The translations under genes were made by a program, and so were the position numbers. 38,759 nt of DNA. Source: Candidatus Dormiibacterota bacterium. Lineage in GTDB: Bacteria; Chloroflexota; Dormibacteria; CF-121. The DNA lies in the NCBI GenBank assembly GCA_035544955.1, contig DASZZN010000027.1, forward strand, positions 1-38,759. Direction: 5' to 3'. Numbering within the stretch: position 1 is the first letter of the stretch; the number at the start of each line of letters is the position of its first letter. A model generated the notes under the pieces. It was not told where the DNA came from. It did no database searches and was given only the letters and a program-made list of their open reading frames with translations. This document shows positions 3,946 to 38,759 of this stretch, piece after piece.

Positions 3946-4596
<651 letters not shown>

Positions 4597-4607
4597 TTAG
4601 TCGCTTC

Positions 4608-4680: not shown

Positions 4681-4728
4681 AATCCCACCCAAACGGAACG
4701 GTTGGATCCGCCCTGAGGAAGCTCGACC

Positions 4729-5049: not shown

Positions 5050-5095
5050 ATCAGACTGAGCGTTTCCTCGGCTGGAACCTTGCGCCGTTGTCGAT

Positions 5096-5128
5096 AAATA
5101 GGGGCGGGCGCGAAGCCCACCCCTATTT
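5096..5128 (-). terminator. Rho-independent terminator of the acetate permease operon
   Basis: This is a long hairpin: AAATAGGGG-C-GGGC, a GCGAA loop, then GCCC-A-CCCCTATTT (13 pairs, one mismatch). It lies just past the stop codon of the minus-strand permease gene. On the minus strand the T-rich stem end TATTTAT can serve as the U tract. The stem is symmetrical and could work in both directions. Confidence 0.8.
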
Positions 5129-5140
5129 CGAAATCGAGTC

Positions 5141-6766
5141 TTAGACGGCCGCGGGGACTCGCTCCTCGACTACCGAGCTCGGCTCTGCACCGACGCCGGT
5201 CTGCGAACGTACCGCGATCTCGGGGTACATCGCTTTCGCGCGCTGGTCGCCGCCGAGGGCTTCGCCGATGTAGGTACCGACGATTGCGAAGAGGAACCCG
5301 AGCGGGATGCTCACAATGCCTGGGTTCGATAGCGCGAATGCGGGATGCGCCGCCGGCACCGTATTGAGACCGGGTCCGATCACGATCAGGAGGATCGACA
5401 CGGCCGTCCCGCCGATCAGACCGAAGACGGCGCCGACGGTATTGAACCGCTTCCAGAAAAGCGTGAAGAGGATAACCGGCAGGTTGCCACTGGACGCCAC
5501 CGCGAAGGCCGCGGCGACCAACTGGGCAGCATTGGCCGTGGGCAGGTTGATCGCGACGAGCACGGCGATGACGCCGACCCCGACGGCCGCAATGCGCGCA
5601 ACCGTCACCTGTTCCCGCTCGCTTTCCTTGCCGCCTCGGATGACATTCATCCAGAAGTCGTGCGCAAAGGCGCTGGAGGCCGCGAGAGTGAGACCCGCGA
5701 CCACCGCAAGGATGGTGGCGAAGGCGACCGCCGAGATGAACCCGAGCAGCAGCTCACCACCAAAGGAGTTCGGCCCACCGCCGAGAAACTCCGCCAGCTT
5801 GGGCGCCGCGAGGTTGGAGTTCGGGATCTTCGCCTTGCCGACGAGCACGGCGGCGCCGAATCCCAGGAACGTCGTCATCACGTAAAAGGCGCCGATCAGG
5901 CCCATCGCCCAACCAACCGAAGCCCGCGCCGCACGGGCGGTCGGCACGGTGTAGAAGCGCATCAGGATGTGCGGCAGGCCAGCCGTCCCGAAAATGAGCG
6001 CCATACCGAGAGAGACGTTCTCGATGGTCGACTTGTCGAGCGTCAGGGGCCCGAGGAAGACGTGCTTCCCGTGCGGGTAGAGGATGCCGGGTTGCGTGAA
6101 GTTGAGTCCCGATTTCTTGTCGACGACTTTGGCGATCGCATCGAAGAACCGCAGCGGGTTGAAACCGAAGTGGCTGAGCACCATGATGCTCAAAAGGATG
6201 GCGCCTGCCATCAGCAACGTCGCCTTGACGATCTGGACCCAGGTCGTTGCGATCATGCCGCCGAGCACGACGTAGCCGATCATCAGGATGCCGACGATGA
6301 CCACCGCCAACTGGAACGAGAACCCCGGTACCAGCAGGTGCAGGACGACGCCGGCGCCGACCATCTGGGCGATCATGTAGAAGCCGCTCACCGCCAGCGT
6401 GGAGATGGCGGCAGCGGAGCGCACCGGGCCGGCTGACATGCGATAGGAGAGCACGTCGGCCATGGTGTACTTGCCGGTGTTTCGGATCGGCTCGGCGATC
6501 AGGAGCAGAACGGTCAGGTAGGCGACTAGCCAGCCGACGGAGTACATGAAGCCGTCGTAGCCGTTGAAGGCGATCAGCCCGGCGATTCCGAGGAAGGAGG
6601 CAGCACTCATGTAGTCGCCGGCGATGGCGAGCCCGTTCTGCCAGGCCTTGATCTTGCGGCCGGCGGCGTAGAACTGGACGGTCGTGTGCGTCTGCCGCGC
6701 CGCCCAGACAGTGATACCGAGCGTGATGGCGACGACGACGGCCGTGATCCAAAGGGTGGTGGTCAT
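5141..6766 (-). CDS. actP: Cation/acetate symporter (SSS family, ActP-like)
   Basis: This 541-residue polytopic sodium:solute symporter probably takes up acetate and other short monocarboxylates. The N-terminal part is strongly ActP-like: AGRKIKAWQNGLAIAGDYMSAASFLGIAGLIAF, then GYDGFMYSVGWLVAYL and EPIRNTGKYTMADVLSYRM. About 12-13 hydrophobic helices are visible. The start ATG overlaps the stop of the DUF485 gene (ATGA), the same order as yjcH-actP in enterobacteria. Acetyl-CoA synthetase is transcribed divergently, which supports acetate as substrate. Confidence 0.93.
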   Translation of the reverse strand: MTTTLWITAVVVAITLGITVWAARQTHTTVQFYAAGRKIKAWQNGLAIAGDYMSAASFLGIAGLIAFNGYDGFMYSVGWLVAYLTVLLLIAEPIRNTGKYTMADVLSYRMSAGPVRSAAAISTLAVSGFYMIAQMVGAGVVLHLLVPGFSFQLAVVIVGILMIGYVVLGGMIATTWVQIVKATLLMAGAILLSIMVLSHFGFNPLRFFDAIAKVVDKKSGLNFTQPGILYPHGKHVFLGPLTLDKSTIENVSLGMALIFGTAGLPHILMRFYTVPTARAARASVGWAMGLIGAFYVMTTFLGFGAAVLVGKAKIPNSNLAAPKLAEFLGGGPNSFGGELLLGFISAVAFATILAVVAGLTLAASSAFAHDFWMNVIRGGKESEREQVTVARIAAVGVGVIAVLVAINLPTANAAQLVAAAFAVASSGNLPVILFTLFWKRFNTVGAVFGLIGGTAVSILLIVIGPGLNTVPAAHPAFALSNPGIVSIPLGFLFAIVGTYIGEALGGDQRAKAMYPEIAVRSQTGVGAEPSSVVEERVPAAV

Positions 6767-7343: not shown

Positions 7344-9323
7344 ATGACGATCCAATCCGGCACGCATGCCATCGAGTCGATGCAGCTGGAGGAGCGACGC
7401 TACCCGCCGCCCCCCGAATTTGCGAGGAATGCCAACGCCAAGCCGGACATCTATGCCAAGCCGTTGGAGGACTTCTGGAAGGAAGAGGCGCTGAAGCGCG
7501 TCTCCTGGTTCAAGCCGTTCGACACGGTCCTCGAGTGGAAGCTGCCTTATGCCAAGTGGTTCCTCGGCGGCAAGCTGAACGTCTGTTACAACTGCGTCGA
7601 CAGGCACGTCGAAGCCGGGCGGGGCGACAAGGTCGCCTACTACTGGGAAGGCGAGCCGGTCGACCAAAAGCGCACCATCACCTTCACAGACCTCCTGGCG
7701 GACGTCGTTCGCTTTGCCAACGCGCTCAAGAAACTCGGCGTCAGGAAGGGGACCCCGGTGGGGATCTACATGGGCATGGTGCCCGAGCTCCCGGTCGCGA
7801 TGCTCGCCTGCACCCGGCTCGGCGCCCCCCATACCGTCGTCTTCGGTGGGTTCAGCGCCGACGCGCTCGGCGGGCGGCTCAACGATATGGAGTGTGAGCT
7901 GCTGATTACCCAGAACGAGGGTCTGCGGAAGGGCAATCCGGTGCCCCTCAAGAAGAACGCCGATGCGGCGCTCGAGATGGCGCCCAAGGTCAAGAAGGCG
8001 GTCGTACTCCGCCGGACGCCGATGGACACCCCAATGAAGGACGGCCGCGACGTCTGGTGGCAGGACCTGGTCAAAGATGCCAGTGCTGACCCCGCCTCCT
8101 GTCCCTGCGAGCCGATGGACGCGGAAGACCTGCTCTACCTGCTCTACACGAGTGGGACGACCGCCAAACCCAAGGGGATTGTCCACACCACCGCCGGGTA
8201 CCTGGTGGGGACGGCGACGACCCACCACTACATCTTCGACATCAAGCCTGACTCGGTTTACTGGTGCGCCGCCGACATCGGCTGGGTCACCGGCCACAGC
8301 TATATCGTCTACGGGCCACTTTGCAACGGCACGACCGGCGTCATCTACGAGGGCGTCCCCGACTTCCCCGACAAGGATCGCTGGTGGTCGATCATCGAGC
8401 GCTATAAAATCGACATCCTCTACACGGCGCCGACCGCGATCCGCACCCACATGAAATGGGGGCCGGAGTACGCGAAGAAGCACGACCTCAGCTCGCTCCG
8501 CCTGCTGGGCTCGGTGGGTGAGCCGATCAATCCGGAGGCCTGGATCTGGTATCGGGAGAACATCGGAGGTGGCCGGACGCCGGTGGTCGACACCTGGTGG
8601 CAGACCGAGACCGGGATGATCCTGATCACGCCGCTTCCCGGAGTGACGACGCTGAAGCCCGGCTCTGCGACCAAGCCCTTCCCCACCGTCCAGGCGGCGG
8701 TCTACAACGACGCGGGTGAAGAGGTGGGACCCGGCGGCGGGGGCTACCTGGTGATCAAAGGCCCCTGGCCGGCCATGCTGCGCGGGATCTTCCGGGACCA
8801 CGAGCGCTATGTCCAGACGTACTGGAGCAAGTTCAAGGACGTTTACTTCGCCGGCGACGGGGCACGGATCGACGAGGACGGCGACTTCTGGCTGCTGGGA
8901 CGGGTGGACGACGTCATGAATGTCTCCGCCCACCGCATTTCGACGATCGAGGTGGAGAGCGCCCTGGTCAGCCACCCGAAAGTCGCCGAGGCTGCCGTCG
9001 CCGGCCGCAGCGACAAGCAGACCGGCCAGGCAATCGTTGCCTTCGTCACCCTCAAAGGCGGAGCCGAGGGCTCACCGGAGATGCTGATCGAGTTGCGCGA
9101 GCACGTGGGGAAGAAGATCGGGAAGATCGCGGCACCCGCCAACATCGTCTTCACCCCGGAGCTGCCCAAGACCCGCTCGGGCAAGATCATGCGGCGGCTG
9201 CTTCGTGACGTGGCGGAGAACCGTCCGCTCGGCGACACGACCACGCTGGCCGACCCGGCGGTCGTCAGCGAGATCGACCGGCGCGCCAAGACCGAGGCGG
9301 CCAAGGAGGAATCCTCGGCCTAA
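7344..9323 (+). CDS. acsA: Acetyl-CoA synthetase (AMP-forming)
   Basis: This 659-residue enzyme converts acetate, ATP and CoA to acetyl-CoA, AMP and PPi. The adenylate motif YTSGTTAKPKG lies in the middle. DTWWQTETGMILITPLPG is the Acs-specific A5 region, LLGRVDDVMNVSAHRISTIEVESAL is the hinge and A8 region, and PKTRSGKIMRRLLR carries the catalytic C-terminal lysine that is the known acetylation switch in this family. The Shine-Dalgarno GAAGGAGG (7324-7331) precedes the start. A 3-codon reading frame (ATG 7336, Met-Ser-Arg-stop) overlaps the start codon. It is divergent from the acetate permease, making an acetate-scavenging unit. Confidence 0.96.
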   Translation: MTIQSGTHAIESMQLEERRYPPPPEFARNANAKPDIYAKPLEDFWKEEALKRVSWFKPFDTVLEWKLPYAKWFLGGKLNVCYNCVDRHVEAGRGDKVAYYWEGEPVDQKRTITFTDLLADVVRFANALKKLGVRKGTPVGIYMGMVPELPVAMLACTRLGAPHTVVFGGFSADALGGRLNDMECELLITQNEGLRKGNPVPLKKNADAALEMAPKVKKAVVLRRTPMDTPMKDGRDVWWQDLVKDASADPASCPCEPMDAEDLLYLLYTSGTTAKPKGIVHTTAGYLVGTATTHHYIFDIKPDSVYWCAADIGWVTGHSYIVYGPLCNGTTGVIYEGVPDFPDKDRWWSIIERYKIDILYTAPTAIRTHMKWGPEYAKKHDLSSLRLLGSVGEPINPEAWIWYRENIGGGRTPVVDTWWQTETGMILITPLPGVTTLKPGSATKPFPTVQAAVYNDAGEEVGPGGGGYLVIKGPWPAMLRGIFRDHERYVQTYWSKFKDVYFAGDGARIDEDGDFWLLGRVDDVMNVSAHRISTIEVESALVSHPKVAEAAVAGRSDKQTGQAIVAFVTLKGGAEGSPEMLIELREHVGKKIGKIAAPANIVFTPELPKTRSGKIMRRLLRDVAENRPLGDTTTLADPAVVSEIDRRAKTEAAKEESSA

Positions 9324-9803: not shown

Positions 9804-9879
9804 GCCGAGGTAGCTCAGTTGGTAGAGCACATGACTGAAAATCATGGTGTCGCCAGTTCGATTCTGGCCCTCGGCACCA
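9804..9879 (+). tRNA. tRNA-Phe (anticodon GAA), CCA encoded
   Basis: The acceptor stem GCCGAGG pairs with CCTCGGC, discriminator A at 9876, with CCA at 9877-9879. The anticodon stem CATGA/TCATG encloses CTGAAAA (anticodon GAA). The T-arm is GCCAG-TTCGATT-CTGGC. A -10-like TAGAAT (9788-9793) lies 10 nt upstream. Its 3' half is duplicated at 11428-11470. Confidence 0.96.
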
Positions 9880-9897
9880 AACCCCGCCGGCGGAAGC

Positions 9898-10395
9898 CTA
9901 CGAACCCGGCGGAATGCCCTGAATGTCGATCGAACTCCCGGAGAACAGGTCGTAGTAGGGCACCCCGAGAGATCGGGCCAGAGCCTTGAGCTGCGTGGTA
10001 CCAAACGGTTTCGCGGACACCCTGAAGGCGGTGTGGCCGTCTTTGCGAACGAAGTCACATGTGTTGCCCCCGCGGCCCGCGAAGCTGATTTGCAGCCGGT
10101 CCAACTGATCGCGCCGGCAGGACGCTCCCCAGGGTAAGCGACTGACTCCTACCCGTTCCGAGTCGACCCACAGGTGCCAGCGGTACAACCCGTAGATGAA
10201 CAACGCGCCGATGCCCAACCAGACGAAGACCGGCACGAGGCTGCGGCCGCTCAGCATGAGCCCAGCCCCGAAGAGCGTGACGGTGCCGATAATCACGCCG
10301 AAGGCGATCAGCGTCGACTGCTGGGGGCGGATCACCAGGCGCTGACTGCCGTCCGCCGGGAGCTGGTCGAGGTTTGCCGCCATCACTACTGGCAA
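9898..10395 (-). CDS. Membrane protein with PH-like C-terminal domain, function unknown
   Basis: This 165-residue protein has two adjacent membrane helices (about 29-48, STLIAFGVIIGTVTLFGAGLML, and 53-70, LVPVFVWLGIGALFIYGLY). A soluble region of about 95 residues follows (WHLWVDSERVGVSRLPWG... DQLDRLQISFAGRG...), whose layout resembles bacterial PH-domain membrane proteins; that match is tentative. The start may be at 10395 or at the Met four codons later. The stop lies 18 nt from the tRNA-Phe 3' end, inside the segment bounded by tRNA-Phe and its 3' copy. Confidence 0.65.
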   Translation of the reverse strand: MPVVMAANLDQLPADGSQRLVIRPQQSTLIAFGVIIGTVTLFGAGLMLSGRSLVPVFVWLGIGALFIYGLYRWHLWVDSERVGVSRLPWGASCRRDQLDRLQISFAGRGGNTCDFVRKDGHTAFRVSAKPFGTTQLKALARSLGVPYYDLFSGSSIDIQGIPPGS

Positions 10396-10477
10396 AACGT
10401 CGCCATATCCGGGCTCCGTGCAGGCTTTACTTTTCTCGCGTGTCTCGTTACGCGGTCGCGTTCGGGCGCGGGCAGGG

Positions 10478-11368
10478 TTACGACGAGATGGTTGGGGCCT
10501 TGATGGTTACCGCGCCGCTGAAGTCGTGGAGGTTGATCACGGCGTGGGCCGTCAGATGCGCCATTGAGCCGGCAGGGATTTGCACGGATTGGCCATTTGA
10601 GCCCGTCCCGTTGGCGAAGGCCGCGGATAGCGCATGCAGATCGGCAGTCACGTCGGCGTCATAGCTGACCCGGCGAATCAGGTGATCGGAGGTGCCTGTC
10701 CAGACATCGGCCGTCAGCTGCGCGTTCTGCAAGATCCCCTCGAGCGCCGCCGCCACTTGCGGATCTTTTGACGATCCTCCGGTCGTGACCTGCGCCAGGA
10801 GTTTGACAAGGTCGGGAACGATCCGGTAATGATCGACGGCGACGCCATTGATCGTCGAGGGTTGATCGTTGATTTCGGACAGCGATTTGGCGGTGTCGAT
10901 CAGGGCCTGATACGAGAGCCCGGTCTTCGACTTCGCCGAGTTTGCCTGGTGGGGCTGCCCGAGAGCCTTCCATTTGCCCGTCATCGGGTCCTTGATATAG
11001 AGCCGGCCGCCGACCGCGATCACTTCCGTGTCCACCGTCAGGCCGCCGAGTTTTGCCTCGACCGTCGCGTCCAGCTGGTCCGGCTTCTTCACCGCCCCGC
11101 TGATGGTGAGATCGACGGTCATGTTGCTGCTCAGAAAGCTGCCTTGCGAGCCGGCCTTGGCCCGCAACTGGTCGACAAGCGACGCGGGCAGGGTCAGGGT
11201 CACGGTCGCTTTCGCGTCGAAGCGAACCGAGGTCAGCTTCCCCATCGCCTTGCCGGTCGCGGCCAGGCTCTGCTGGGGGGTGTCGGTCTTGGACGCGGCC
11301 GGGGCGTTTAGGCCGGCACACGCCGAGAGCAATCCGATCGCCAGGACGGCAACTACGGTTCGCCTCAT
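10478..11368 (-). CDS. Lipoprotein of the LppX/LprAFG type
   Basis: This 296-residue protein has a lipoprotein signal, MRRTVVAVLAIGLLSAC, with lipobox cysteine C17. The mature part alternates strands and helices in the pattern of mycobacterial LprG/LppX carriers: SVRFDAKATVTLTLP, then TVDLTISGAVKKPDQLDATVEAKLGG, IAVGGRLYIKDPMTGKWKALG, and a late VWTGTSDHLIRRVSYDADV. Such proteins bind lipids in the envelope; the assignment is by pattern only. The frame extends upstream to 11605, but that extension is antisense to the tRNA remnant and msrB, so 11368 was chosen as the start. Confidence 0.8.
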   Translation of the reverse strand: MRRTVVAVLAIGLLSACAGLNAPAASKTDTPQQSLAATGKAMGKLTSVRFDAKATVTLTLPASLVDQLRAKAGSQGSFLSSNMTVDLTISGAVKKPDQLDATVEAKLGGLTVDTEVIAVGGRLYIKDPMTGKWKALGQPHQANSAKSKTGLSYQALIDTAKSLSEINDQPSTINGVAVDHYRIVPDLVKLLAQVTTGGSSKDPQVAAALEGILQNAQLTADVWTGTSDHLIRRVSYDADVTADLHALSAAFANGTGSNGQSVQIPAGSMAHLTAHAVINLHDFSGAVTIKAPTISS

Positions 11369-11427
11369 GTTCCTCACGATAATGCACCGCCGGGGCTGGA
11401 AATGTGACACGCGCGCTCTGGATCCCC

Positions 11428-11470
11428 GAAAATCTGGTGTCGCCAGTTCGATTCTGGCCCCCGGCGCCAA
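11428..11470 (+). repeat. Displaced 3' half of tRNA-Phe
   Basis: Positions 11435-11460 are identical (26 nt) to 9845-9870 of tRNA-Phe, and GAAAATC before it matches the anticodon-loop side. The next 10 nt (CCGGCGCCAA) match the acceptor and CCA end with two changes. There is no 5' half, so it cannot be a working tRNA. The arrangement is that of a displaced attachment-site copy left by integration into the tRNA. Confidence 0.88.
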
Positions 11471-26167: not shown

Positions 26168-26240
26168 GCGGGAGTAGCTCAGTTGGTAGAGCGCAACGTT
26201 GCCAACGTTGAGGTCGCGAGTTCGAGACTCGTCTCCCGCT
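26168..26240 (+). tRNA. tRNA-Gly (anticodon GCC)
   Basis: The acceptor stem GCGGGAG pairs with CTCCCGC (discriminator T). The anticodon stem CAACG/CGTTG encloses TTGCCAA (anticodon GCC). The T-arm is GCGAG-TTCGAGA-CTCGT. CCA is not encoded. Its last 23 nt (26218-26240) recur downstream at 29387, 30347 and 35912. Confidence 0.97.
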
Positions 26241-26465
26241 AATTGATCAGCTTGAGCTGGCTTGTTGGAGCGAGTGGCTTCACGACCAAACGGTGGCCCC
26301 AACGAGTTTGAAGTTACAAGGGCTGATTTCCTCGTCGCCAGGGTCGCTATGCGGCGTCCGACATGGCGGTGGGAGGCGGCGGTCCCCAAGGGCCTCTGGC
26401 CGTGGATTATCTTCGAGTTTCACGCGGCATGTAACCTTCTGCTCCTGAAGAGCCCCTTTCCAGTA

Positions 26466-26942
26466 GTGGAGGCGCCAACCGCGGACGAGCGCACTGACAC
26501 GGTCGAGGCGCTCTATCGCACGCATGGGGATCGAATTTGGCGGGCGGTAGCTGTTTATGCCCAGGATCCTGATGTCGCGAGCGATGCGGTGGCGGAAGCA
26601 TTCGCGCAGTTAATGGTTCGGGGCGAAGCTGTTCGGTCGCCGGCTGCCTGGGTGTGGCGGACCGCCTTTCGGATCGCTGCTGGGATGCTCCAGGAGCGCA
26701 CACGATCGGTAGCCCTCGTGGGAACAGAATCCTACACGACACGTGATTCGGCCGGCGAATTGGTGGCGTCTCTGGCCAAGCTGCCGCCGAAGCAGCGTGC
26801 CGCCTTGATTCTCTTCTACTACGGCGACTACCCAATCGGTCAGATTGCCGAGATGTTGCGCTCAAACGCCCTGTCTGTTCGGGTCAACCTGAGCCGCGGA
26901 CGGCGGCGGCTGCGGCGAATCCTGGAGGAAGAGCATGCCTGA
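26466..26942 (+). CDS. ECF-type RNA polymerase sigma factor
   Basis: This protein of about 158 residues has sigma region 2 (about 13-75: VEALYRTHGDRIWRAVAVYAQDPDVASDAVAEAFAQL and SPAAWVWRTAFRIAAG) and region 4 (about 100-150: LPPKQRAALILFYYGDYPIGQIAEMLRSNALSVRVNLSRGRRRLRRIL). It would direct transcription of a small regulon, possibly its own operon. The frame is open upstream to 26262 (ATG at 26349) without family-like residues, so the GTG at 26466 was chosen. Its end overlaps the next gene by 8 nt. TGTAAC at 26430-26435 resembles an ECF -35, but no matching -10 was found. Confidence 0.88.
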   Translation: MEAPTADERTDTVEALYRTHGDRIWRAVAVYAQDPDVASDAVAEAFAQLMVRGEAVRSPAAWVWRTAFRIAAGMLQERTRSVALVGTESYTTRDSAGELVASLAKLPPKQRAALILFYYGDYPIGQIAEMLRSNALSVRVNLSRGRRRLRRILEEEHA

Positions 26943-28368
26943 GCTGAAGCAGCGGTTCGAGGAATTGGAGAGGCTGCCCGCGCCCGACCTCCAGCGGCGC
27001 ATCCAGATCCGGATTCAGCGCCTTCAGCAGCCGGACAACCCCCTGTCCGTTGCGGAACAGGCATGGCGCCGCCGCGAGCGCCTATGGCCTTCGCAGGTGT
27101 TGGCCGCGGCGGCGGTAATCGTCTTTGCCCTCGTCCTGGGGGTTGCACTGCTGCATGCGCGCAGTCGGGCGCCGGTCCAAGTCCATCCAAGTCCTTCCGT
27201 CGCCCCCCAGCCCCTTCCGAGTCCTTCGATCACCGGCACCTATCCGCGCGGCTTTTATCCGGGTTCGCTGCACATGGTGTCGCCAAACGTCGGTTGGAAC
27301 GGCGTTGCTTACGTTGAGACGAGCGATGCCGGACTTCATTGGAGGGTCATTTCATCGCCGCCGGCAATCTCGAATCAGATCAAAGGTGGGCTGGGTAACT
27401 TTGCGCTGGACACGACGCACGCTTGGATGACCGGGGCGACCAGCCACGGGCTCGTCGTGACCTCGACCGTCGACGGCGGTCATACCTGGAGCGCGAGCGC
27501 TCCGCTGCCGGCCCTCATCCAGATCAGGGGAGGAAATGCAGCGGTGCAATTGGACTTTATCGACGCGCAGCACGGCTGGCTGGTCGTAGATACCGCGGGT
27601 AGCGCTTCTCCAAATTCGCGGGCCATCTTTGCCACGAGTGACGGCGGCCGGCGCTGGAGCGAAATCGCCAGGGCCTCCGAATCCGATGGTTCCGTCCTTG
27701 GTCGGCTTGCCGCCGGCTGTACGCCGAGCGGAATAACGTTCATCAGCGCCGATTACGGGTGGTTGACCTACGACTGTACTCGCGCCAGCGGGGTTCTGTC
27801 CCCACACTCCGGTCCTGTCGCAGCGGTTACGCGCGACGGCGGTCGGAGCTGGGAGGCGGTCCCCCTCCCCTCATACCCGTCAGGGTCCGGGTACTTTTCG
27901 GCGAGTGCGCCGATCTTTACGCTGAACAACGGAATCCTTCCCGTGTTTTTCGGCGGTATCGGGCCGTCCTGGACTGGGATTTATAGAACCACCGACTCGG
28001 GCCGAACCTGGAGCTTGAGTCAGCTGCCGTTCTGGCCAGCCGCGCCCCCCGACTTCATCGACGCGCGCACGGGATGGGCCGTCAAGGAAACGGGGCCGAT
28101 CCCGCCAAGCCCGGGTGCCGACTGCTACGTCGTCACGTGTGCTTTCGTTGCCGAGTTGTACGGCACGACAGACGGTGGCGCCACGTGGAAGCTTCTCAGC
28201 CGACTGGTCCCCGCGGCCGGTGCCGTGGCGTTCTTCGATGCCAAAGTTGGCTACTACGCCTGGTCCGAAAATCCGTTCCACGAGGGATCGCCAGGCGGCA
28301 TTATGAAGACAACAGACGGCGGCCGCAGCTGGTCGGTCGTACGGCCGGTCCTGGAGGGTCAAGGGTGA
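26935..28368 (+). CDS. Membrane-anchored Asp-box (BNR/Ycf48-like) propeller protein, candidate anti-sigma sensor
   Basis: This 477-residue protein has a charged cytoplasmic segment of about 50 residues (LKQRFEELERLPAPDLQRRIQIRIQRL), one membrane helix (about 53-73, SQVLAAAAVIVFALVLGVALL), a Pro/Ser linker and an extracytoplasmic beta-propeller. Seven Asp-box motifs are visible, among them TSDAGLHWR, TVDGGHTWS, TSDGGRRWS, TRDGGRSWE, TTDSGRTWS, TTDGGATWK and TTDGGRSWS. It overlaps the sigma gene by 8 nt and the next lipoprotein gene by 4 nt. The position and topology are those of a transmembrane anti-sigma factor, but the cytoplasmic part has no anti-sigma motif I recognise. Confidence 0.85.
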   Translation: MPELKQRFEELERLPAPDLQRRIQIRIQRLQQPDNPLSVAEQAWRRRERLWPSQVLAAAAVIVFALVLGVALLHARSRAPVQVHPSPSVAPQPLPSPSITGTYPRGFYPGSLHMVSPNVGWNGVAYVETSDAGLHWRVISSPPAISNQIKGGLGNFALDTTHAWMTGATSHGLVVTSTVDGGHTWSASAPLPALIQIRGGNAAVQLDFIDAQHGWLVVDTAGSASPNSRAIFATSDGGRRWSEIARASESDGSVLGRLAAGCTPSGITFISADYGWLTYDCTRASGVLSPHSGPVAAVTRDGGRSWEAVPLPSYPSGSGYFSASAPIFTLNNGILPVFFGGIGPSWTGIYRTTDSGRTWSLSQLPFWPAAPPDFIDARTGWAVKETGPIPPSPGADCYVVTCAFVAELYGTTDGGATWKLLSRLVPAAGAVAFFDAKVGYYAWSENPFHEGSPGGIMKTTDGGRSWSVVRPVLEGQG

Positions 28369-29267
28369 AACGGATGGCACGCCTCGGCATTCTCATGATT
28401 GCGCCGCTTTGGTTGGCCGCCTGCGGCGGGACGGCCGCCCGTCCCACGGTTGCCGCGTCCCGGGCCGCCTCTGCCACCGCGGCCGCGAGCGGCCCTTATA
28501 TCTATTGGGCGAACTGGGGCGCCGGACGTGGGACCACGATCGGCCGCGCCAATCTCGACGGTACGGCGGTGAACCCGAGTTTTATCACCGGCGCCAGCAC
28601 CCCCTGCGATGTTGCGATTAACCAGTCGTATATCTACTGGGGAAACAATGGTACGAATTCGATTGGGCGCGCCAACCTCGATGGCACGGCGGTAAACCAA
28701 ACGTTTATCAGCAGTACCGGCTCGCCGTGTCCTCTCACCATTGACCGCTCTCATATCTATTGGGGGAATTGGCAGGCTCCCGTCTCCATTGGCCGAGCCA
28801 ATCTGGACGGCACTGGGGTGAATGAGAATTTCATCACCGGCATCACTGAACCCGCAGATGTCGTGGTAAACGAGACCTACATCTATTGGACCAGCCACGA
28901 TTCCTTGTCGATCGGGCGCGCGAACCTCGATGGAAGGGGCGTCAACCAGACATTCATCAAGACGGAAGCAACTCCAGATGGGATGGCAATTGACGGCTCG
29001 CACATGTATTGGACTGGCATCGACCGGGGCACAATCGGGCGGGCCAATCTTGACGGGACCGGGTTGAACCAGACCTTCATCACCGGCGCGAATGGGCCGA
29101 CTGGGATTAAAGTCGATACCGACCATATTTACTGGTCCCAGGCGGGTCCACCAAACGGACCCGCGGGGACCACCATCGGGCGAGCGAACATTGACGGCAC
29201 CGGGGTAAACCAGCGCTTCATCACCCGGGCATTTATTCCAGCTGGCCTTGCCATTCAACAACCCTAA
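28365..29267 (+). CDS. YWTD-type six-bladed beta-propeller lipoprotein
   Basis: This 300-residue protein starts at a GTG that overlaps the upstream stop (GTGA) and has a lipoprotein signal ending LAAC (C20). The mature protein is six repeats of about 40 residues with the pattern Y/H-IYW...IGRANLDGT.VN..FI, resembling LDL-receptor class B (YWTD) repeats, so a single closed six-bladed propeller is expected outside the membrane. It has no catalytic motif. As third gene of the sigma/propeller operon it may be a ligand-binding partner or a target of the sigma factor. Confidence 0.88.
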   Translation: MKRMARLGILMIAPLWLAACGGTAARPTVAASRAASATAAASGPYIYWANWGAGRGTTIGRANLDGTAVNPSFITGASTPCDVAINQSYIYWGNNGTNSIGRANLDGTAVNQTFISSTGSPCPLTIDRSHIYWGNWQAPVSIGRANLDGTGVNENFITGITEPADVVVNETYIYWTSHDSLSIGRANLDGRGVNQTFIKTEATPDGMAIDGSHMYWTGIDRGTIGRANLDGTGLNQTFITGANGPTGIKVDTDHIYWSQAGPPNGPAGTTIGRANIDGTGVNQRFITRAFIPAGLAIQQP

Positions 29268-29342
29268 TCTGTGCTGGCTGAGCAGGGGCGAGCCTGACGG
29301 CTAGTCGTTACAGCCCGCGAACCCTAAGTTTTCATCTAAGCC

Positions 29343-29373
29343 GCTGGAGGCAATACGCGCTTGCCTCCCCAGC
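29343..29373. repeat. Hairpin just upstream of the tRNA-Gly remnant
   Basis: GCTGG-AGGCAA, 7-nt loop TACGCGC, TTGCCT-CC-CCAGC: 11 pairs with a 2-nt bulge. A similar hairpin (CTGG..GAGGA / TCCTC.CCAG) lies before the remnant at 30347. Confidence 0.75.
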
Positions 29374-29383
29374 TTGCGTCCTC

Positions 29384-29410
29384 CGCGAGTTCGAGACTCG
29401 TCTCCCCGCT
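29384..29410 (+). repeat. tRNA-Gly 3'-end remnant 1
   Basis: It matches the last 26 nt of tRNA-Gly (26215-26240) with a single inserted C in the acceptor strand. The match continues past the tRNA end: the next 18 nt here agree with those after the tRNA at 16 of 18 positions (AATTG.T.AGCTTGAGCT). Confidence 0.9.
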
Positions 29411-29681
29411 AATTGTTGAGCTTGAGCTTGGTGGAGCTCCAACCACCGCCCTTCATGCCTTGACAAGTCTCGTCTGGGTTTAGCGATTGATAGCGAGTTT
29501 TTCAGGATCTATAAGTGTGGCCGAACCAGGTCCGGAACCTAAGCAGCAGGCAGTTCATCTAGTGACATCGTCGACAATTTGCTGATTCACCACAGCGCCT
29601 AGATCAGGAGCACAGTCGGCTTTTTTCATCATGGGGACTTAACATGATGGTTCGAGTAATCCAGACTCGAGGAGAGACAAC

Positions 29682-30145
29682 GTGAGCCCAAAGAAGGCCG
29701 CCCAGAAGTCGGTCCGCCGCACCACTGACAGGGCGTCCCAGTTATTGACGGCCGAGGAACGAGCCGCGATGAGGGAGACCCTCAACGAGCGGAGGCGCGC
29801 TGGCTCGGGTGAGGCGGACGGGGAAAGCGACGTACTCGGAAGATCGCCGAGATGCCGGAAGCGGATCGCGTCATGGCTAAGCGGCTCCACGCCATCATCA
29901 AAGCCAGCGCGCCTACTCTAGCTCCGAGAACCTGGTACGGGATGCCCGCGTACGCCAAGGACGGCAAGGTTGTCTGCTTCTTCCAAAGCGGGCAGAAGTT
30001 CAAAGCAAGATACGCGACCTTCGGTTTCCAACAGGCTGCAAATCTCGACGAGGGTGACATTTGGCCAACCTCCTTTGCCCTGAAAAGATTGACCCCCGCC
30101 GTCGAGAAAATGATCGGCAAGCTTGTCAAGACAGCGACGAGCTGA
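29682..30145 (+). pseudogene. DUF1801 (YdhG-like) gene with a frameshift
   Basis: Two frames together give one recognisable DUF1801-type protein. The first runs from GTG 29682 (Shine-Dalgarno GAGGAGA at 29669-29675) through LLTAEERAAMRETLNERRRA to ADGESDVL. The second continues as [48 protein letters not shown], to 30145. The change occurs near 29838, where one base appears missing between CTCG and GAAGATC. Members of this family are small, poorly understood proteins. This copy is either inactivated or carries a sequencing or assembly error. Confidence 0.82.
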
Positions 30146-30231
30146 GGCCGCGCATCACGCCGAGCGTGCCGAGGGAGGCTTGGCTGGGATGAAACCATCC
30201 GCTGACCGTCCGCTCAATTCGGCACGGACAG

Positions 30232-30288
30232 TATCCGCTTTCCATTCCAGGTTGTGCCCTGCGTGGGTTCGAGTCCACTCGCACCCGC
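30232..30288 (+). repeat. Degenerate tRNA-like 3' fragment of another tRNA type
   Basis: The T-loop-like GGGTTCGAGTCC is followed by CGCACCCGCA, an acceptor end different from tRNA-Gly(GCC). The upstream part (ATCCGCTTTCCATTCCAGG) parallels that before remnant 2. The T stem lacks one base, so it is not a working tRNA. Confidence 0.55.
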
Positions 30289-30346
30289 AGCAAACCTAGG
30301 CCGCCTGGGCGAGGATCCGCTTTCCTCTCCAGCTTGCGTCCTTCAC

Positions 30347-30369
30347 GAGTCCGAGACTCGTCTCCCGCT
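30347..30369 (+). repeat. tRNA-Gly 3'-end remnant 2
   Basis: The 23 nt match 26218-26240 with one change (T to C in the T-loop). It is preceded by the hairpin CTGG..GAGGA/TCCTC.CCAG and by AGCTTGCGTCCT, both shared with remnant 1. Confidence 0.9.
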
Positions 30370-30466
30370 GATTTCCCGCTCGAGTGCGGCCGGCTACCAA
30401 TCCACGATCCTCGGGTCGGGCGCGGAGGTAGGGACAGGCCGGTCGCTGGCCCGTCCCCTGGAATCG

Positions 30467-31636
30467 CTACGGACGCACGGCGACGCCGTGGACCGCGCAT
30501 CCTGAGCAATTGGCCGGATTGAAAACCGAAGCTGGTGCCAGATCGAGGTAGCTAACCGTTCTTTGATTGACATCGATGACCGCGATCTTGCCCGAGGCGC
30601 GAAGCGAAACAAAGGCGGTGTTCCCTTTCACGCCGATGGCATCCGGCTGGTCGTTGGCGGGACCCGGCGTTGGGTCGAGAACTAGGATGTCGGCGACGCT
30701 TACTTGTTCACCCCGAAGGTCGATCAGCACCAGCTCGTCACCGCGCGGAACGGTCCCGAAGCCCAGCTTTTCGTTAGGGCTCATGTTGAAGCTATGCCAG
30801 TCGGGCGCCGGAAGCCTACCGGCGTCTGCGAGCGTTTCGGTGTCGGTGTCGAGCCGATAGATATGGCCCCCAGTGCTTCCGCCGGCCGCAATCGTCACAG
30901 TCTTGCCGTTCTTCGACTTGATCATGCCGCACGCGATGAAGCCGTCAGTATCGAAGGTGCGCACAACGCTCATGCTGCCCACGTCGACGATCGCCAGGCC
31001 GCTGGGAAGCAACGAGACGTAGGCATGCTTGCCGTCGTCGCGATACACGCTGCAAATCGGAGCCTTCCCCAGCGACGCGAACGAGAGGGAACCGACGACA
31101 TCCCAGCGTTGGGTGGCCAGGTTCGCGGCGACCTTGAAGAGGGTTTTGGAGCCAATCTGCGCCACGAGCAGGACCGAACCGTCCGGTGAGGATTTCGCCT
31201 GGTGGGTCCCTACTTGTCCCAGGTGCAGGACATCGACGAGCTGTCGGCTGTCAGCCTGGACGATGTCGAGGTCGCCGTTGCCCATCCCGGAGATGTAGGC
31301 AAAGGCGCCCTGGGGCGAGAAGGTCGTGATGTGCGGACCGGTCCCGGCCGGAAGGTTGATCGTCTCCATTGGCCCTCGGCCGTCCTGGCCGTGAAGGATA
31401 TCGATGCGACTGGTTGCCTGGAGTGTGATCCAGACCTCGCCGCTCTCCGATAGGACAGTTGGTGTTTGGGCTGGCCGGACTACGGTCGCCGCCTGCTTCA
31501 CTGACGCCGGCCCCTCCGCCGGCGTAGTCGCCGACACTGGAGTCCCACACGCGGCTAGGCTGGCGAGCAAGGTCAGGCTAACAAGCGGCCAAAAGGTCGA
31601 GCGACATGATCGCGGAAGCGGCATCATGATCCTCAT
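30467..31636 (-). CDS. YVTN-type beta-propeller lipoprotein
   Basis: This 389-residue protein has a lipoprotein signal ending SLAAC (C30). The mature part has repeats of the YVTN/cytochrome-d1-like propeller type: [95 protein letters not shown] and [26 protein letters not shown]. It ends with [14 protein letters not shown], which is not a canonical CxxCH heme site. The ATG at 31636 has a strong GGAGG upstream; the longer open frame was rejected. It is divergent from the LuxR-NHL regulator, which could control it. Confidence 0.86.
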
Positions 31637-31718
31637 GTCTTTCCTCCGTCGGGGTTTTCCGGCTCGCCGCCACCGTAGGGGGAAAACGGCCGCCACGCAT
31701 CCGCAGAAATACAGGCTC

Positions 31719-31752
31719 CGGTACCCATTTCGGTACCCAATTCCCATCGGGA
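31719..31752. promoter_or_regulatory. Tandem repeat and inverted repeat between the divergent propeller genes
   Basis: Two adjacent 12-nt units (CGGTACCCATTT and CGGTACCCAATT, 31719-31742), each with a GGTACC palindrome, are followed by TCCC-ATC-GGGA (31742-31752). They lie in the 131-nt space between the YVTN lipoprotein and the LuxR-NHL gene and are candidates for a regulator-binding region. Confidence 0.55.
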
Positions 31753-31767
31753 CCTGAGGAGAACGGA

Positions 31768-33183
31768 GTGCCGGCCAGGCAGGAGTCCACGCTGACACCT
31801 CGCGAGCGGGAGGTCGCCGCTCTCGTAGCCGACGGGCTGACGAACCGCCAGATAGCCAGGCGCCTCTTCATTTCGGAGCGGACGGCCGAGCACCACGTTG
31901 AGCAGATCCGAAGCAAGCTCGGCTTCCATTCCCGGGCTCAGGTTGCCGCATGGGTCGTGGGATCGCCGGCGCCTCTCGCGCCCGCCCCAACGGCCGCGGC
32001 GTCTGTGCCAGTCGATGCCTCGTCGAGCCGAGAGTCCACTGCAACTGGAAAGGCCCCTCGATCGCGCTGGGTGACCGCCGTCCCGGTCGCCATGTTGGTG
32101 GCTGCCGGCGCTGCGGCCTTCGCCTTCTGGGCGTCGCGGCAGGGAGGGTCAGCCATGACCATCGTCACGGTGGCCGGCACCGGTCGATCGACGTTCTCGG
32201 CGGACGGCCGGCCCGCAACAGCGACGGATCTCGTCCGCCCGGCGGCGATGGCGGTTGCTCCGAACGGCACGCTCTACTTCATCGACGGCAATCGAGTCAG
32301 GAAGATCACTGGACGAGACACGGTGCAGACCATTGCGGGCACGGGTGATTCCGGGGATGGCGGTGATGGGGGGCCAGCCCTGTCGGCTCAACTCAACTCG
32401 CCAAAAGCGCTGGCCATCGATCCCGACGGAGATGTTTTCATCGCGGATACCGGGAACAATCGGGTTCGTGAGGTTGATCCCAAGGGGAAAATCTTCACGG
32501 TAGCCGGCACAGGCGATGCCGGCTATTCCGGTGATGGCGAACGAGCGGTCCGGGCTCGCCTGAACGCCCCGACGGGACTGGCCGTCGGCTTTAGTGGCAG
32601 CGTATTTATCGCCGACACGCTGAATCATCGTGTGCGAATGGTCACGAGCGAGGGCGTGATCAGCACGGTGGCGGGAACCGGAACCGCCGCGTATACGTTC
32701 GAAGGTGGTCCCGCCACCGCGGCACCCCTCGACTTACCTGAGGCACTTGCCTTCGACAGCGAAGGGTATCTCTACATCGAGGACGTTGGCAACGATCGGG
32801 TGCGGAAGGTCGATCTCGCCGGCGAGATCGTCACCGTCGCCGGAACTGGTGTTCCGGGCTCTTCCGGCGACGGTCAATCGGCTTCAGCCGCTGAGCTGAG
32901 TCTGACGAGCCAAGGGTTGGGAAGTGGTCAGGCGCTGGCCGTTGATAGCCAGGGCAACCTTTATATAGCGGATGCCGGCAACGAGAGGATTCGCGAGGTC
33001 GATCTTCGCGGCACAATTTCGAGCCTGGCGGGGACCGGTCGCGCGGGGTACTCGGCGGACGGTAGCGCGCCGCTGCAGGCAACGCTTAACGATCCTCTCA
33101 GTGTGGCGGTTGACGCCCAGGGAGTCGTGTACATCGCCGACAGCGAGAACAATTTGATCCGGGAGATTGCTCCCAAACGCTAG
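31768..33183 (+). CDS. LuxR-type HTH / transmembrane / NHL six-bladed propeller regulator
   Basis: This 471-residue protein has a GerE/LuxR DNA-binding domain at the N-terminus (about 8-64: [43 protein letters not shown]). A Pro/Ala/Ser linker, one membrane helix (about 102-122, [21 protein letters not shown]) and six NHL repeats (about 133-471, pattern AGTG..GYSGDG...A.L..P..LAVD..G..YIAD..N.RVR.V) follow. The layout suggests a one-component membrane regulator that senses outside and binds DNA inside, in the manner of ToxR/CadC but with different domains. The start is GTG with TGAGGAGA 6 nt upstream. The stop overlaps the convergent neighbour's stop (CTAG). Confidence 0.9.
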
Positions 33184-33950
33184 GGTGACTGATCCACGGG
33201 CGTCTCGAAGGGCTGGCCTGCAGCGGTGACATGAAATGCAAGGAAGGTAGACCGGCCGCTGGCTAGGTTGAAAATCTGTGTCGCCGTCCCGGGCAGCTCG
33301 CTTGCCCCGTGGTCGGCGGCAAGCGTGACCGCCGATTTCCCGGCTGCCCGTACCCGGATCGATCCTTCCAGGACAAAGAGGGCCACGATGCCGCCGTATT
33401 TTGCCGCGCCCGTTCGTCCGCCCGGCTCCAGAGCGACCCATCGTAGGGTTTCGATGTACGGACTGGGTGAGAACGTGGTCAGAGGAAAGTCCAGCGTTTC
33501 GTACGGAACAATGGCGCTCGAGGAGACGAGCGGTGACGACCGAGCGCTCGTCGGCCACAGCGCCACGAAGTACCAGTGGTTCTCCGCCAGTCCCGGGTTG
33601 GTATGTGTGTGCGCCAGCGGACCGAGAAAGAAACCCTGCGCCGGTCCAATGTTTACGGTCGGGCCATCCTGGATGGCGAGCACCTGGCTGCCCTCCGCCT
33701 GAAAGATGAGACCTGGCACGTGCTTGAGCGAGGGAAAGAAGCTGCCAGCCGGCTGATGGAATTCGATTGCGCGGATGAACAAGTTGCCGGTCGGCAAGGC
33801 CGGTAGCGGACCGCCAGCAAGGGGTACAGTCTTGGATCCCTGGGCCTTCGCATCCTGGCTCATCGAGGTCGAGGCGGCCGCGCTGCATGCCGTGGATAGC
33901 AGGGCAAGGACGCAAGCGATCCAAAACCGCCGCCCCGGGCACCCTCCCAT
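33180..33950 (-). CDS. Cupin-like lipoprotein
   Basis: This 256-residue protein has the lipoprotein signal [14 protein letters not shown] (C22). The mature part shows two cupin-like beta regions: [26 protein letters not shown], with a His-rich strand that could hold a metal, and [36 protein letters not shown]. The cupin reading is from pattern only. The ATG at 33950 was chosen for the signal peptide; the upstream open frame to 34220 is Arg/Pro-rich and not protein-like. It is convergent with the NHL regulator, and the two stop codons share CTAG. Confidence 0.75.
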
Positions 33951-34066
33951 CCTCGAAGGGTAGGCTAAACCGGTCCCAGACCTGGCCTGCCCTGGGAGAC
34001 TTCGATGTCTGCGAGCCGGTATCCGAAGCGAACCTGGCCCGTCTGAGTGGGCATTGCGCGGGAAAC

Positions 34067-34079
34067 CTCGTCTCCCGCT
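34067..34079 (+). repeat. Short tRNA-Gly 3'-end match (possible remnant 3)
   Basis: 13 nt are identical to the last 13 nt of tRNA-Gly(GCC). The T-arm before it is not preserved, so it could be an eroded remnant or chance. Confidence 0.4.
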
Positions 34080-34394
34080 CTCTCGTGCATAACTCTTCGA
34101 ACGCCGCCGCGGCGGTGGAGGTAAACGTGGGGATGCCTCCATCCCACGGGCCATCCCGGTGCTGGAGGGCGAGTAACCGTGCGCCCCAGCCCTCAGTGGC
34201 AACGCGGGCACGCCTGGCACAGCCGGGCTGGCCTACGCCACATCTGCCATCTGGTAGCTGAACCGAATTGGTAGGGCGTCGGTGGAACGCCTCCTGGCGT
34301 AGACGCTGGTCTCTTTGGCGCAGTCTGTTTGGCGGGCCTCGTTGAGCGCAGCGGTAGGCAGGCACCGCCCGAGTTCCTCTCCGGCGTATCCGCA

Positions 34395-34423
34395 TTGACG
34401 GAGGGCCGCCCGCCCGTTAGTCT
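34395..34423 (+). promoter_or_regulatory. Promoter of the secreted Asp-box gene
   Basis: TTGACG (34395-34400), a 17-nt spacer and TAGTCT (34418-34423) precede the GTG at 34433 by 9 nt. The expected +1 falls at or within a few bases of the start codon. Confidence 0.65.
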
Positions 34424-34432
34424 TCTTCGCGG

Positions 34433-35899
34433 GTGAGGGGAACAACGACGAGGTCGCTGACGCTCGTGACAGCGAGCGTGATCATGATGGCTTCCCTGGC
34501 GCCAGGGGCAGGCATCGCTGCTTTGGCCAGCGACCAGGGGAGCGTGCGCTTCAGCCTCCAGCACCGGGTCGGTTTCGTCTCCGGCGACGACTGGGAACCG
34601 GCCATCGCAGCCGACCGGTTTGGCCATGAGTACGTCCTGTACAAGCACTACGACGTCCCGGGCGGCGGCACCTGCCCCGCCTGCGATGTCCACCTCCTTG
34701 TACAGCGCAGCAGCAATGGTGGGCGTAGCTGGACCGTGCCCAGGGCCATTGCCCCAGTAGCCGTTGACGGTGGGCAGTACGATCCGCAGATCGCGGTCGA
34801 CCCCGTGGACGGCCGCACCGTGTGGGCCTCCTTCCTGCAGAACGCCAACTCCGTGATCGGCGTGGTCGAATCCACCGACTTCGGCGAGACCTGGTCCCCC
34901 GTTCGGATCGTAAGTGATGGCCTCATCGGGCTGGACAAGGACTCGCTCGTGGTCCGCGGCCGGACCGTGGCGGTGGCGTACGACGACGGCTTCAGCACCT
35001 ACGCGTCAATCTCGCAAGACGGCGGTCGGCAGTGGACTACCCGCCTGGTTACGCCCGGCAGCAACCGCTTCAACCTGCCGTTGTCGGCAGGCGGCGGAAT
35101 CGATTCCAAGGGCAATCTGTATTTTGCCTGGAACAGCTTTGACGCAGCCCATTCGGCTAACGGGGACGGACCGGTTACGCTCTGGCTCACCCGCTCCAGC
35201 GACGAGGGAAAAACCTGGCAACGAGTCGTGATCGCTGTCAGTGGCGCTCCCCCGCCCTGCAGTGGTTGCGGCTTCGCCTATCTAAGTGCGCAGATGACCA
35301 TGAGGATCGGGCCCGACGACGCAGTCTATCTCCTCTGGAATGGAACGGTCGACCGCACGGACTTTGCACCCGAGCGCATCTTTTTCAGCCGCTCGGTTGA
35401 TCACGGCCGAACCTTCTCATCGCGCCGCGAGGTGTCCACTGCTCCGGCTGGGGCAGAACATGCTTTTCCGGCGATCACCGTCGGCGATCGAGCGGGCGAC
35501 GTACGGTTGGCCTGGATGGACACGCCGCAGGTGGCTGCGGACGGAACCGGCACCTGGAACGTTCGTTACCGGGCCACTGAAGATAATGGGCAGACGCTGG
35601 GGCCGGAGGTACGCATCTCCCGATTCGTGCCTGGCTATCCTTATCTCACGCCAGCCGGGTTCACGTCGCCATACGGCGACTACTTTCAGATGGCGATTGA
35701 TGCAAACGACGCCACCGTGCTGGCGTTTGGCGAAGGCCCGAACTACGCGGGGCCGGGCAACATCTGGGTCTCGCATGAGCTTCAGACCGGCGAACCGGAC
35801 ATAGCCGCCGGGGGCCCGGATGAAAGCTCCGCGGCGACCTGGCAGCGCGCGCTCCACGGAACTACTGAGCGGACGCATGCAGGTGTCGGCGACCGCTAG
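34433..35899 (+). CDS. Secreted Asp-box (BNR/sialidase-fold) protein
   Basis: This 488-residue protein has a signal peptide (1-33, LTLVTASVIMMASLAPGAGIAALAS). Its mature part is a sialidase-fold propeller with repeated Asp boxes: SSNGGRSWT, STDFGETWS, SQDGGRQWT, SSDEGKTWQ, SVDHGRTFS and a weak TEDNGQTLG. Two cysteine pairs (CPAC, CSGC) may form disulfides. I do not see enough of the sialidase arginine triad to call an enzyme; exo-alpha-sialidase annotation would be over-reach. The last ~30 residues look unstructured. The stop lies 12 nt before the distal tRNA-Gly copy. Confidence 0.85.
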   Translation: MRGTTTRSLTLVTASVIMMASLAPGAGIAALASDQGSVRFSLQHRVGFVSGDDWEPAIAADRFGHEYVLYKHYDVPGGGTCPACDVHLLVQRSSNGGRSWTVPRAIAPVAVDGGQYDPQIAVDPVDGRTVWASFLQNANSVIGVVESTDFGETWSPVRIVSDGLIGLDKDSLVVRGRTVAVAYDDGFSTYASISQDGGRQWTTRLVTPGSNRFNLPLSAGGGIDSKGNLYFAWNSFDAAHSANGDGPVTLWLTRSSDEGKTWQRVVIAVSGAPPPCSGCGFAYLSAQMTMRIGPDDAVYLLWNGTVDRTDFAPERIFFSRSVDHGRTFSSRREVSTAPAGAEHAFPAITVGDRAGDVRLAWMDTPQVAADGTGTWNVRYRATEDNGQTLGPEVRISRFVPGYPYLTPAGFTSPYGDYFQMAIDANDATVLAFGEGPNYAGPGNIWVSHELQTGEPDIAAGGPDESSAATWQRALHGTTERTHAGVGDR

Positions 35900-35911
35900 C
35901 TACTCTACGGA

Positions 35912-35934
35912 GAGTTCGAGACTCGTCTCCCGCT
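35912..35934 (+). repeat. tRNA-Gly 3'-end copy (distal boundary)
   Basis: A perfect 23-nt copy of 26218-26240, 9.69 kb from the tRNA. It abuts the promoter of the UvrA-like gene. It is the best candidate for the original tRNA end displaced by integration. Confidence 0.93.
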
Positions 35935-35955
35935 GATCGCGACTATCATTCCCGG

Positions 35956-38274
<2,319 letters not shown>

Positions 38275-38317
38275 TGGCTTGTACGCACGGCTTGTAAAGC
38301 ATATGAGCGGGCTAACC

Positions 38318-38346
38318 TTGCTCGTCTACCCCATCGGCGGTACGCT
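38318..38346 (+). promoter_or_regulatory. Candidate promoter of the DHFR-like gene
   Basis: TTGCTC (38318-38323), a 17-nt spacer and TACGCT (38341-38346) lie 6 nt before the ATG at 38353. Confidence 0.5.
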
Positions 38347-38352
38347 TGCGCA

Positions 38353-38759
<407 letters not shown>

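Follow-up and report, generated by a model that had tools for sequence, protein, structure and literature searches.

The DNA behind a tRNA-Gly(GCC) gene in the genome of this soil-dwelling member of the Dormibacteria is probably a series of mostly decayed genomic islands, arrayed in tandem, that were inserted by serine recombinases; that site-specific integration occurred behind this gene is well supported. In our window (the whole 38,759-nt stretch of DNA that was analysed), the tRNA gene is followed by displaced copies of its own 3' end, with units of cargo DNA between them:

26168–26240, + strand: tRNA-Gly(GCC), the target gene
26218–26240, + strand: attachment-site core, from the T-arm to the 3' end of the tRNA; left junction of the array
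26241–29383: unit 1, with an ECF-type sigma factor, a BNR beta-propeller protein and an Ldl/Vgb-type repeat protein; no recombinase
29384–29410, + strand: displaced copy with one inserted C
29411–30261: unit 2, with a DUF1801-like gene (29852–30145)
about 30262–30290, + strand: a different tRNA-like 3' end, not of tRNA-Gly(GCC)
30347–30369, + strand: displaced copy with one mismatch to the 23-nt tRNA-Gly end
30370–34066: unit 3, with a Lactonase-like propeller lipoprotein, a LuxR-HTH/NHL propeller protein and a protein without a Pfam match
33180–34220, minus strand: the unit 3 protein without a Pfam match
34067–34079, + strand: short displaced copy of 13 nt
34080–35911: unit 4, with a secreted-type BNR_2 protein (34433–35899)
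35912–35934, + strand: exact displaced copy, the last one seen
35956–38759, + strand: UvrA-like gene and DHFR-like gene, probably still island DNA

Displaced tRNA ends and the DNA between them

The 23-nt core (GAGTTCGA..CGCT) is a direct repeat that starts in the T-arm. We confirmed the recurrences reported in a first-pass annotation, namely an exact one (35912–35934), one with a single mismatch (30347–30369) and one with an inserted C (29384–29410), and all displaced tRNA-Gly ends in the window lie on the same strand (+) as tRNA-Gly itself. Except for the copy at 35912, the displaced copies are imperfect. Window-sized dinucleotide shuffles produced no matches to the 23-nt end. Allowing up to three mismatches, we found eight sites in the 3.67-Mb genome, three of which are tRNA-Gly genes, versus none for a reversed-pattern control, indicating that the sequence is not randomly scattered. 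No second tRNA with a GCC anticodon was found in the assembly, and tRNA-Gly was the only credible match to an RNA family across the island.

The sequences flanking these sites are conserved between genomes beyond what shuffles produce, with key pairs at z-scores of 6–15. Downstream of 29384–29410, the flank matches both a tRNA-Gly flank and a copy flank in relative G013 (z of 6.7 and 7.8), as well as the flank of the window's own tRNA-Gly (z of 5.8); downstream of 30347–30369, it matches a copy in G015 (z=8.3). The 13-nt piece at 34067–34079 is too short to carry weight alone, but its flanks match true sites: the 24 nt upstream resemble a copy in G013 (z=6.2) and the downstream flank resembles what follows tRNA-Gly in G001 (z=7.1), which bears out its earlier listing as a copy. 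The tRNA-like end at about 30262–30290, whose top match is Leu(TAG) with a weak score, is preceded by 30 nt that are common to the copies at 29384 and 30347.

Alignment across related soil Chloroflexi showed that gene order is not fixed at this locus. On the left, the order helicase, 23057 gene, M23 peptidase, tRNA-Gly is kept in the genus genomes whose contig spans that side, and the DNA after tRNA-Gly is different in every genome compared. Shared blocks occur behind tRNA-Gly at differing distances between relatives, and flanks of displaced copies reappear beside tRNA-Gly in other genomes. G003, G007 and G016, for instance, have the DUF1801-like gene of unit 2 at a short distance behind tRNA-Gly itself. 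Together, the rare repeats and the variable downstream DNA bear out the proposal of site-specific integration into the tRNA-Gly 3' end in tandem units. None of the genomes showed a tRNA-Gly(GCC) site that was empty, so the Gly insertions have no before/after pair; the empty-site order predicted earlier, with tRNA-Gly next to the UvrA-like gene, was likewise seen in no genome compared.

As first described, the region from 26241 to 38759 contains no recombinase gene and no phage structural genes among its proteins, and the window contig gave no recombinase match. A defence function for the island was considered and rejected, the only matches being to generic ATPase and HTH domains.

The right boundary originally placed at 35934 is not supported. 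No ortholog of the UvrA-like gene was found in the 11 genus members searched, which gave ordinary UvrA-type matches only, and the DHFR-like gene has a 90%-identical counterpart next to the tRNA-Gly(TCC) array in G022, a member of another family whose true UvrA is 69% identical to that of this genome. Because of the missing ortholog and the 90%-identical gene, the island probably runs on past 35934 to the contig edge. Two candidates for a shared right flank were thus discarded: the UvrA-like gene, for want of that ortholog, and a glyoxalase-like gene, whose orientation and distance vary in relatives.

A large serine recombinase at tRNA-Gly

The first-pass annotation had expected a tyrosine recombinase; the T-arm signature at the Gly sites and a serine recombinase beside tRNA-Gly point elsewhere. 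A large serine recombinase adjoins tRNA-Gly(GCC) in family member G015, and another, on contig C12 of this genome, adjoins tRNA-Gly(CCC). The two proteins are 51% identical and have Resolvase, Recombinase and Zn-ribbon domains. G015 also has a serine recombinase remnant at its displaced copy, and recombinase fragments adjoin tRNA-Gly(GCC) in G001 and G003.

In this arrangement the recombinase C-terminus is read antisense to the tRNA end, and similar traces occur in the window. At the 30347 site, the antisense strand encodes a relic, 31 residues long, of the C-terminus of the G015 recombinase (52% identity, E=4e-4). At the 34067 site, the downstream antisense codes FEELCTRERET, resembling the serine recombinase C-terminus FEELLTTIGSRERET, a relic that is weak when taken singly (E=0.05). 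The sequences after 26240 and 29410 gave no recombinase relic, and these flanks may belong to another integrase. Given the genes at tRNA-Gly in G015 and this genome and the C-terminal relics, the inserting enzyme was most likely a large serine recombinase.

Among 30 serine recombinase loci examined in the class, 15 have a tRNA gene on the opposite strand at the 3' end of the recombinase gene; the share expected is about 4%, and none of 29 UvrA control loci has such a neighbour. At the tRNA-adjoining loci the recombinase reading frame usually runs into the tRNA. The C12 recombinase was also considered as a current helper of the window's units, which was unsupported as the flanks differ. A viral origin was rejected, viral contigs containing no relative of this enzyme; plasmid and phage records gave distant matches only (25–30% among the matches listed).

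We propose that large serine recombinases targeting the tRNA T-arm inserted circular elements, each of which would have carried the last 23 nt of tRNA-Gly in its attachment site. With each insertion the tRNA would have been made whole again and earlier elements moved further out, every element accounting for a single displaced copy. In this genome the units no longer have a recombinase gene, and attachment sites and cargo are all that remain, as the absent recombinase, the conserved site flanks and the C-terminus relics at two sites show. They would now be cis-mobilizable-type remnants, presumably movable only with a matching recombinase from elsewhere. Tyrosine or serine integrases probably acted in this way on other tRNA genes of the genome too.

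Other tRNA genes and competing explanations

For 52 tRNA calls made by ARAGORN, of which a few were duplicates, we compared the 3' end with the DNA that follows the same gene. The sequence read consisted of the regions behind tRNA genes and those surrounding matches, with displaced copies sought within about 13 kb. Copies were found on the same strand only, all opposite-strand columns being empty, and a reversed query gave one match, at the threshold score. Similar displaced ends occur at the Cys, Lys(TTT), Ser(GGA), Phe and Gly(CCC) tRNA genes, where most of them enclose units without an integrase. The lack of an integrase is therefore not the local oddity it had seemed, as most tRNA-anchored units here have none. 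One such unit lies in our window, behind tRNA-Phe, and an empty site in relative G008 provides its before/after pair:

9804–9879: tRNA-Phe
9880–11427: second integrase-free unit of the window
11428–11469: displaced 3' half of tRNA-Phe

These results bear on three other explanations. Chance, tRNA-derived retro-insertions or ordinary duplications, with no site-specific integration, would fit those copies that have an insertion or, at 13 nt, are short, but we consider this extremely improbable, as copies lie on the strand of their cognate tRNA, have defined starts and enclose unrelated DNA, in addition to the single reversed-control match and the tRNA-Phe empty site. The displaced ends might instead be scars of tyrosine integrases, the nearby serine recombinases being unrelated. 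Tyrosine integrases do adjoin tRNA-Gly 3' ends in G032, G020 and G015:C115, and the Cys, Lys, Ser and Phe copies in this genome, which extend as far as the anticodon arm or in its direction, fit such enzymes. The Gly(GCC) copies, however, start in the T-arm, whereas the copies beside the G032 tyrosine integrase are long; G015, G001 and G003 each have a serine recombinase gene or its remnant immediately at tRNA-Gly(GCC), and two window sites have serine recombinase relics. We find this reading quite unlikely.

It is also conceivable, if on balance unlikely, that no decay of islands took place and that the units form a standing population of non-autonomous cassettes. Integrases encoded at other tRNA loci, or in other cells, would then move them in trans, in the way that integron integrases located elsewhere serve integron cassette arrays with no integrase of their own. 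The genome has only three tyrosine and three serine recombinase loci for units that mostly have no integrase. The flank of integrase-free tRNA-Cys copies (CTTCTAACAATTGAC..CTGAC) is found in G015 immediately ahead of a tyrosine integrase of 409 aa (z of 10.6–11.8), and the sigma factor of the Ser(GGA) array is 76% identical to that of unit 1, all other homologs being about 24–37% identical. Similar integrase-poor arrays also occur in G022, G024 and G036. Against this, recombinase relics or fragments at several sites suggest decay, and a matching helper for the Gly units was not found in this genome. A genome-wide cassette system in these soil Chloroflexi, with the 3' ends of several tRNA genes as recombination sites for small integrase-free units served in trans, seems to us a doubtful but possible extension; if it existed, a few tRNA-specific serine and tyrosine integrases would serve the units, and sigma-factor/propeller modules would shift between arrays at different tRNA genes.

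Published tRNA-island surveys require an integrase on the island and take the tyrosine class as the sole tRNA-targeting one. As most tRNA-anchored units in this genome are integrase-free and half of the serine recombinase loci examined in the class adjoin a tRNA gene, our results point to a considerable share of mobile DNA in uncultured Chloroflexi going undetected. They also supply concrete, testable recombinase/site pairs.

Comparison with known systems

To be listed by Islander an island must contain an integrase gene, for which tyrosine integrases alone are counted, its authors stating that serine recombinases were not known to target tRNA genes (PMC4383910). Bounding by a tRNA and a same-orientation displaced 3' fragment is also seen here, but the array has no integrase and would go unlisted by Islander's stated rules. 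CALINs, integron cassette arrays without an integrase (mentioned in PMC11389934), offer an analogy only: in both, cargo units with recombination sites would be strung together and the enzyme missing, but CALIN sites are attC and those of the tRNA-Gly array are tRNA 3' ends.

Cis-mobilizable elements (CIMEs) arise from accretion and decay (reviewed in PMC5704250). Like them, the tRNA-Gly units have kept att sites (displaced cores with conserved flanks), lost integration genes and accumulated in tandem at one target; unlike them, no conjugative or mobilizable partner element is seen beside the units, whose mobilization is putative. The closest known kind is tandem cis-mobilizable elements such as the ssrA-specific islands of Dehalococcoides, which lie in tandem with ~20-bp copies of the RNA gene 3' end after T-loop insertion (McMurdie 2011, PMC3146451). 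A large serine recombinase adjoins their left end and a six-gene integration module is described for them; about half (15 of 31) have no integration module and were read as possible cis-mobilizable elements (PMC3146451). The tRNA-Gly array comes from the same phylum and shares the tandem layout and the ~20-bp T-arm repeat. The Dehalococcoides target is the tmRNA gene ssrA, whereas here it is tRNA-Gly and several other tRNA genes, and the cargo is dehalogenases there but beta-propeller and sigma-factor genes here, in mostly small units (about 0.9–9 kb). No counterpart of the left-end serine recombinase of Dehalococcoides occurs in the window, but G015 has one at this tRNA and the present genome has one at tRNA-Gly(CCC).

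Tandem units behind tRNA-Gly(GCC)

The 3′ end of tRNA-Gly(GCC), a gene placed by ARAGORN, recurs downstream in the window:

26168-26240: tRNA-Gly(GCC)
near 29384-29410: copy of the tRNA end with one inserted C
30347-30369: copy of the final 23 nt with one mismatch
35912-35934: exact recurrence of the final 23 nt

Dinucleotide shuffles of the window gave zero matches to this 23-nt end. In the 52 contigs of the 3.67-Mb genome, just 8 sites match it with at most three mismatches, 3 of them being the tRNA-Gly genes GCC, CCC and TCC, and the reversed 23-nt pattern produced none at the same threshold. Taken by itself, a 13-nt piece at 34067 carries little weight; its flanks are common to true sites in relatives. 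At 30262-30290, 82 nt ahead of the 30347 copy, lies a tRNA-like 3′ end from another tRNA, with the same upstream flank as that copy.

In the relatives compared (soil Chloroflexi MAGs), the M23 peptidase gene precedes tRNA-Gly(GCC) in genus and family genomes with contigs covering the left side, mostly accompanied by the helicase gene and the gene at 23057. The DNA behind the tRNA is different in each relative, with common blocks at varying distances, and the DUF1801-like gene of unit 2 (29411-30261) lies close behind tRNA-Gly in the related genomes G003, G007 and G016. This combination of a conserved left side, differing DNA behind the tRNA and a gene that shifts place argues that the locus is an integration hotspot with exchangeable units.

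The first-pass annotation had predicted an empty site with tRNA-Gly beside the UvrA-like gene (35956). This prediction found no support, as no ortholog of that gene was found in the 11 genus genomes searched, where its matches were ordinary UvrA-type genes (about 48% identity or less); beyond the genus we found only fragments, 74–88% identical, in two genomes of other families. The DHFR-like gene (38353) shares 90% identity with a gene adjoining the tRNA-Gly(TCC) array of G022, a genome of another family, compared with 69% identity between the true UvrA proteins of the two genomes. Given these two observations, the island probably reaches the contig edge.

Unit 1 (26241-29383) carries a sigma factor and propeller proteins. 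Its sigma factor has its closest homolog in this genome, at 76% identity, in the first tRNA-Ser(GGA) unit, where the next protein has an N-terminus like that of the unit 1 partner protein. Arrays at two different tRNA genes thus have one sigma-factor/partner module in common:

26262-28368, window: sigma factor and partner protein, tRNA-Gly array
4291-5926, L099 (a stretch of this genome): sigma factor and partner protein, tRNA-Ser(GGA) array

Displaced ends at other tRNA genes

Scanning the DNA behind each tRNA of this genome with 44-nt tRNA 3′ ends revealed displaced copies behind Cys (three full, one partial), Lys(TTT) (two), Ser(GGA) (two), Phe (one) and Gly(CCC) (one), while Gly(TCC), Lys(CTT) and Pro(GGG) gave weaker copies; the scan found none on the opposite strand. 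The displaced ends of tRNA-Gly(GCC) are not an isolated case in the genome. The copies begin at different points: in or close to the anticodon arm at Cys, Lys and Phe, at least as far back as that arm at Ser, and in the T-arm at Gly. Ser(TGA) copies sit on contig C38 (L051), where a tyrosine integrase with an internal stop (~7853-9065, minus strand) lies directly behind a displaced tRNA-Ser(TGA) 3′ half. Further Cys copies also occur apart from tRNA-Cys, on contigs C5 and C28; these are possibly secondary-site insertions or rearranged parts of the array.

Stretches L077 (contig C33, minus strand), L105 and L159 hold tRNA-Cys 3′ halves, with three to four recurrences behind tRNA-Cys. Contig C16 of G022 (L062) carries four 46-nt near-exact tRNA-Gly(TCC) 3′ halves, tRNA included, and one diverged copy; a conserved flank of ~60 nt follows each full half, and most of these flanks contain a second partial anticodon-arm copy.

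The tRNA-Phe unit could be compared with its empty site:

9880-11469, window: integrase-free unit of 1.55 kb behind tRNA-Phe, with displaced 3′ half

Its membrane/PH-like gene and its lipoprotein gene both lack a Pfam match. Joined to the displaced copy, the 5′ part of tRNA-Phe aligns with the related genome G008 over 962 columns (81% identity), and the insert of roughly 1.55 kb has no counterpart there. The two loci therefore form a before/after pair for an insertion, and Phe is the only tRNA for which such a pair demonstrates insertion.

Serine recombinases and the probable origin of the array

Recombinase loci in the genome number three of the tyrosine and three of the serine type; the window contig carries none. 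Contig C12 encodes a serine recombinase of 538 aa (Resolvase, Recombinase and Zn-ribbon domains) directly behind tRNA-Gly(CCC), and a copy of that tRNA's 3′ end lies 5.2 kb further along. In the related genome G015, a serine recombinase 51% identical to the C12 enzyme follows tRNA-Gly(GCC), and a remnant of another lies at the displaced copy; G001 and G003 have serine recombinase fragments behind the same tRNA. These enzymes have their C-terminus encoded within the tRNA end, on its antisense strand. In the window, 31 codons resembling the C-terminal end of the second G015 recombinase follow the 30347 copy (52%, E=4e-4, small search); the codons after the 34067 copy give FEELCTRERET, which the C12 enzyme shares, a match weak by itself (E=0.05). 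Of the 30 serine recombinase loci examined in the class (L197-L226), 15 have an opposite-strand tRNA gene at the recombinase 3′ end, and in nearly all of these the recombinase frame extends into the tRNA. In a wider phylum sample, 9/27 such loci have a tRNA gene. The expectation from tRNA density is about 4%, and control UvrA loci gave 0/29. For tRNA-Cys, the enzyme is a tyrosine integrase: G015 has one behind a flank that also follows integrase-free Cys copies here.

The best reading of the array is that T-arm-specific serine recombinases inserted repeatedly at tRNA-Gly, each element restoring the tRNA and pushing older ones outward, and that the recombinase genes would then have been lost. 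The unit structure, conserved site flanks and enzyme relics are shown by the sequence itself; how events followed one another at Gly, and whether the units are mobile today, is inferred.

The Islander paper (PMC4383910) states that serine recombinases were not known to target tRNA genes, and in a Mycobacterium survey tyrosine integrases are the users of the tRNA sites; in this partial literature comparison, an earlier description of tRNA-targeting serine integrases may exist. The nearest precedent for the tRNA-Gly array is the ssrA islands of Dehalococcoides, which use a serine recombinase, insert in the T-loop and are arranged in tandem, half of them without an integration module.
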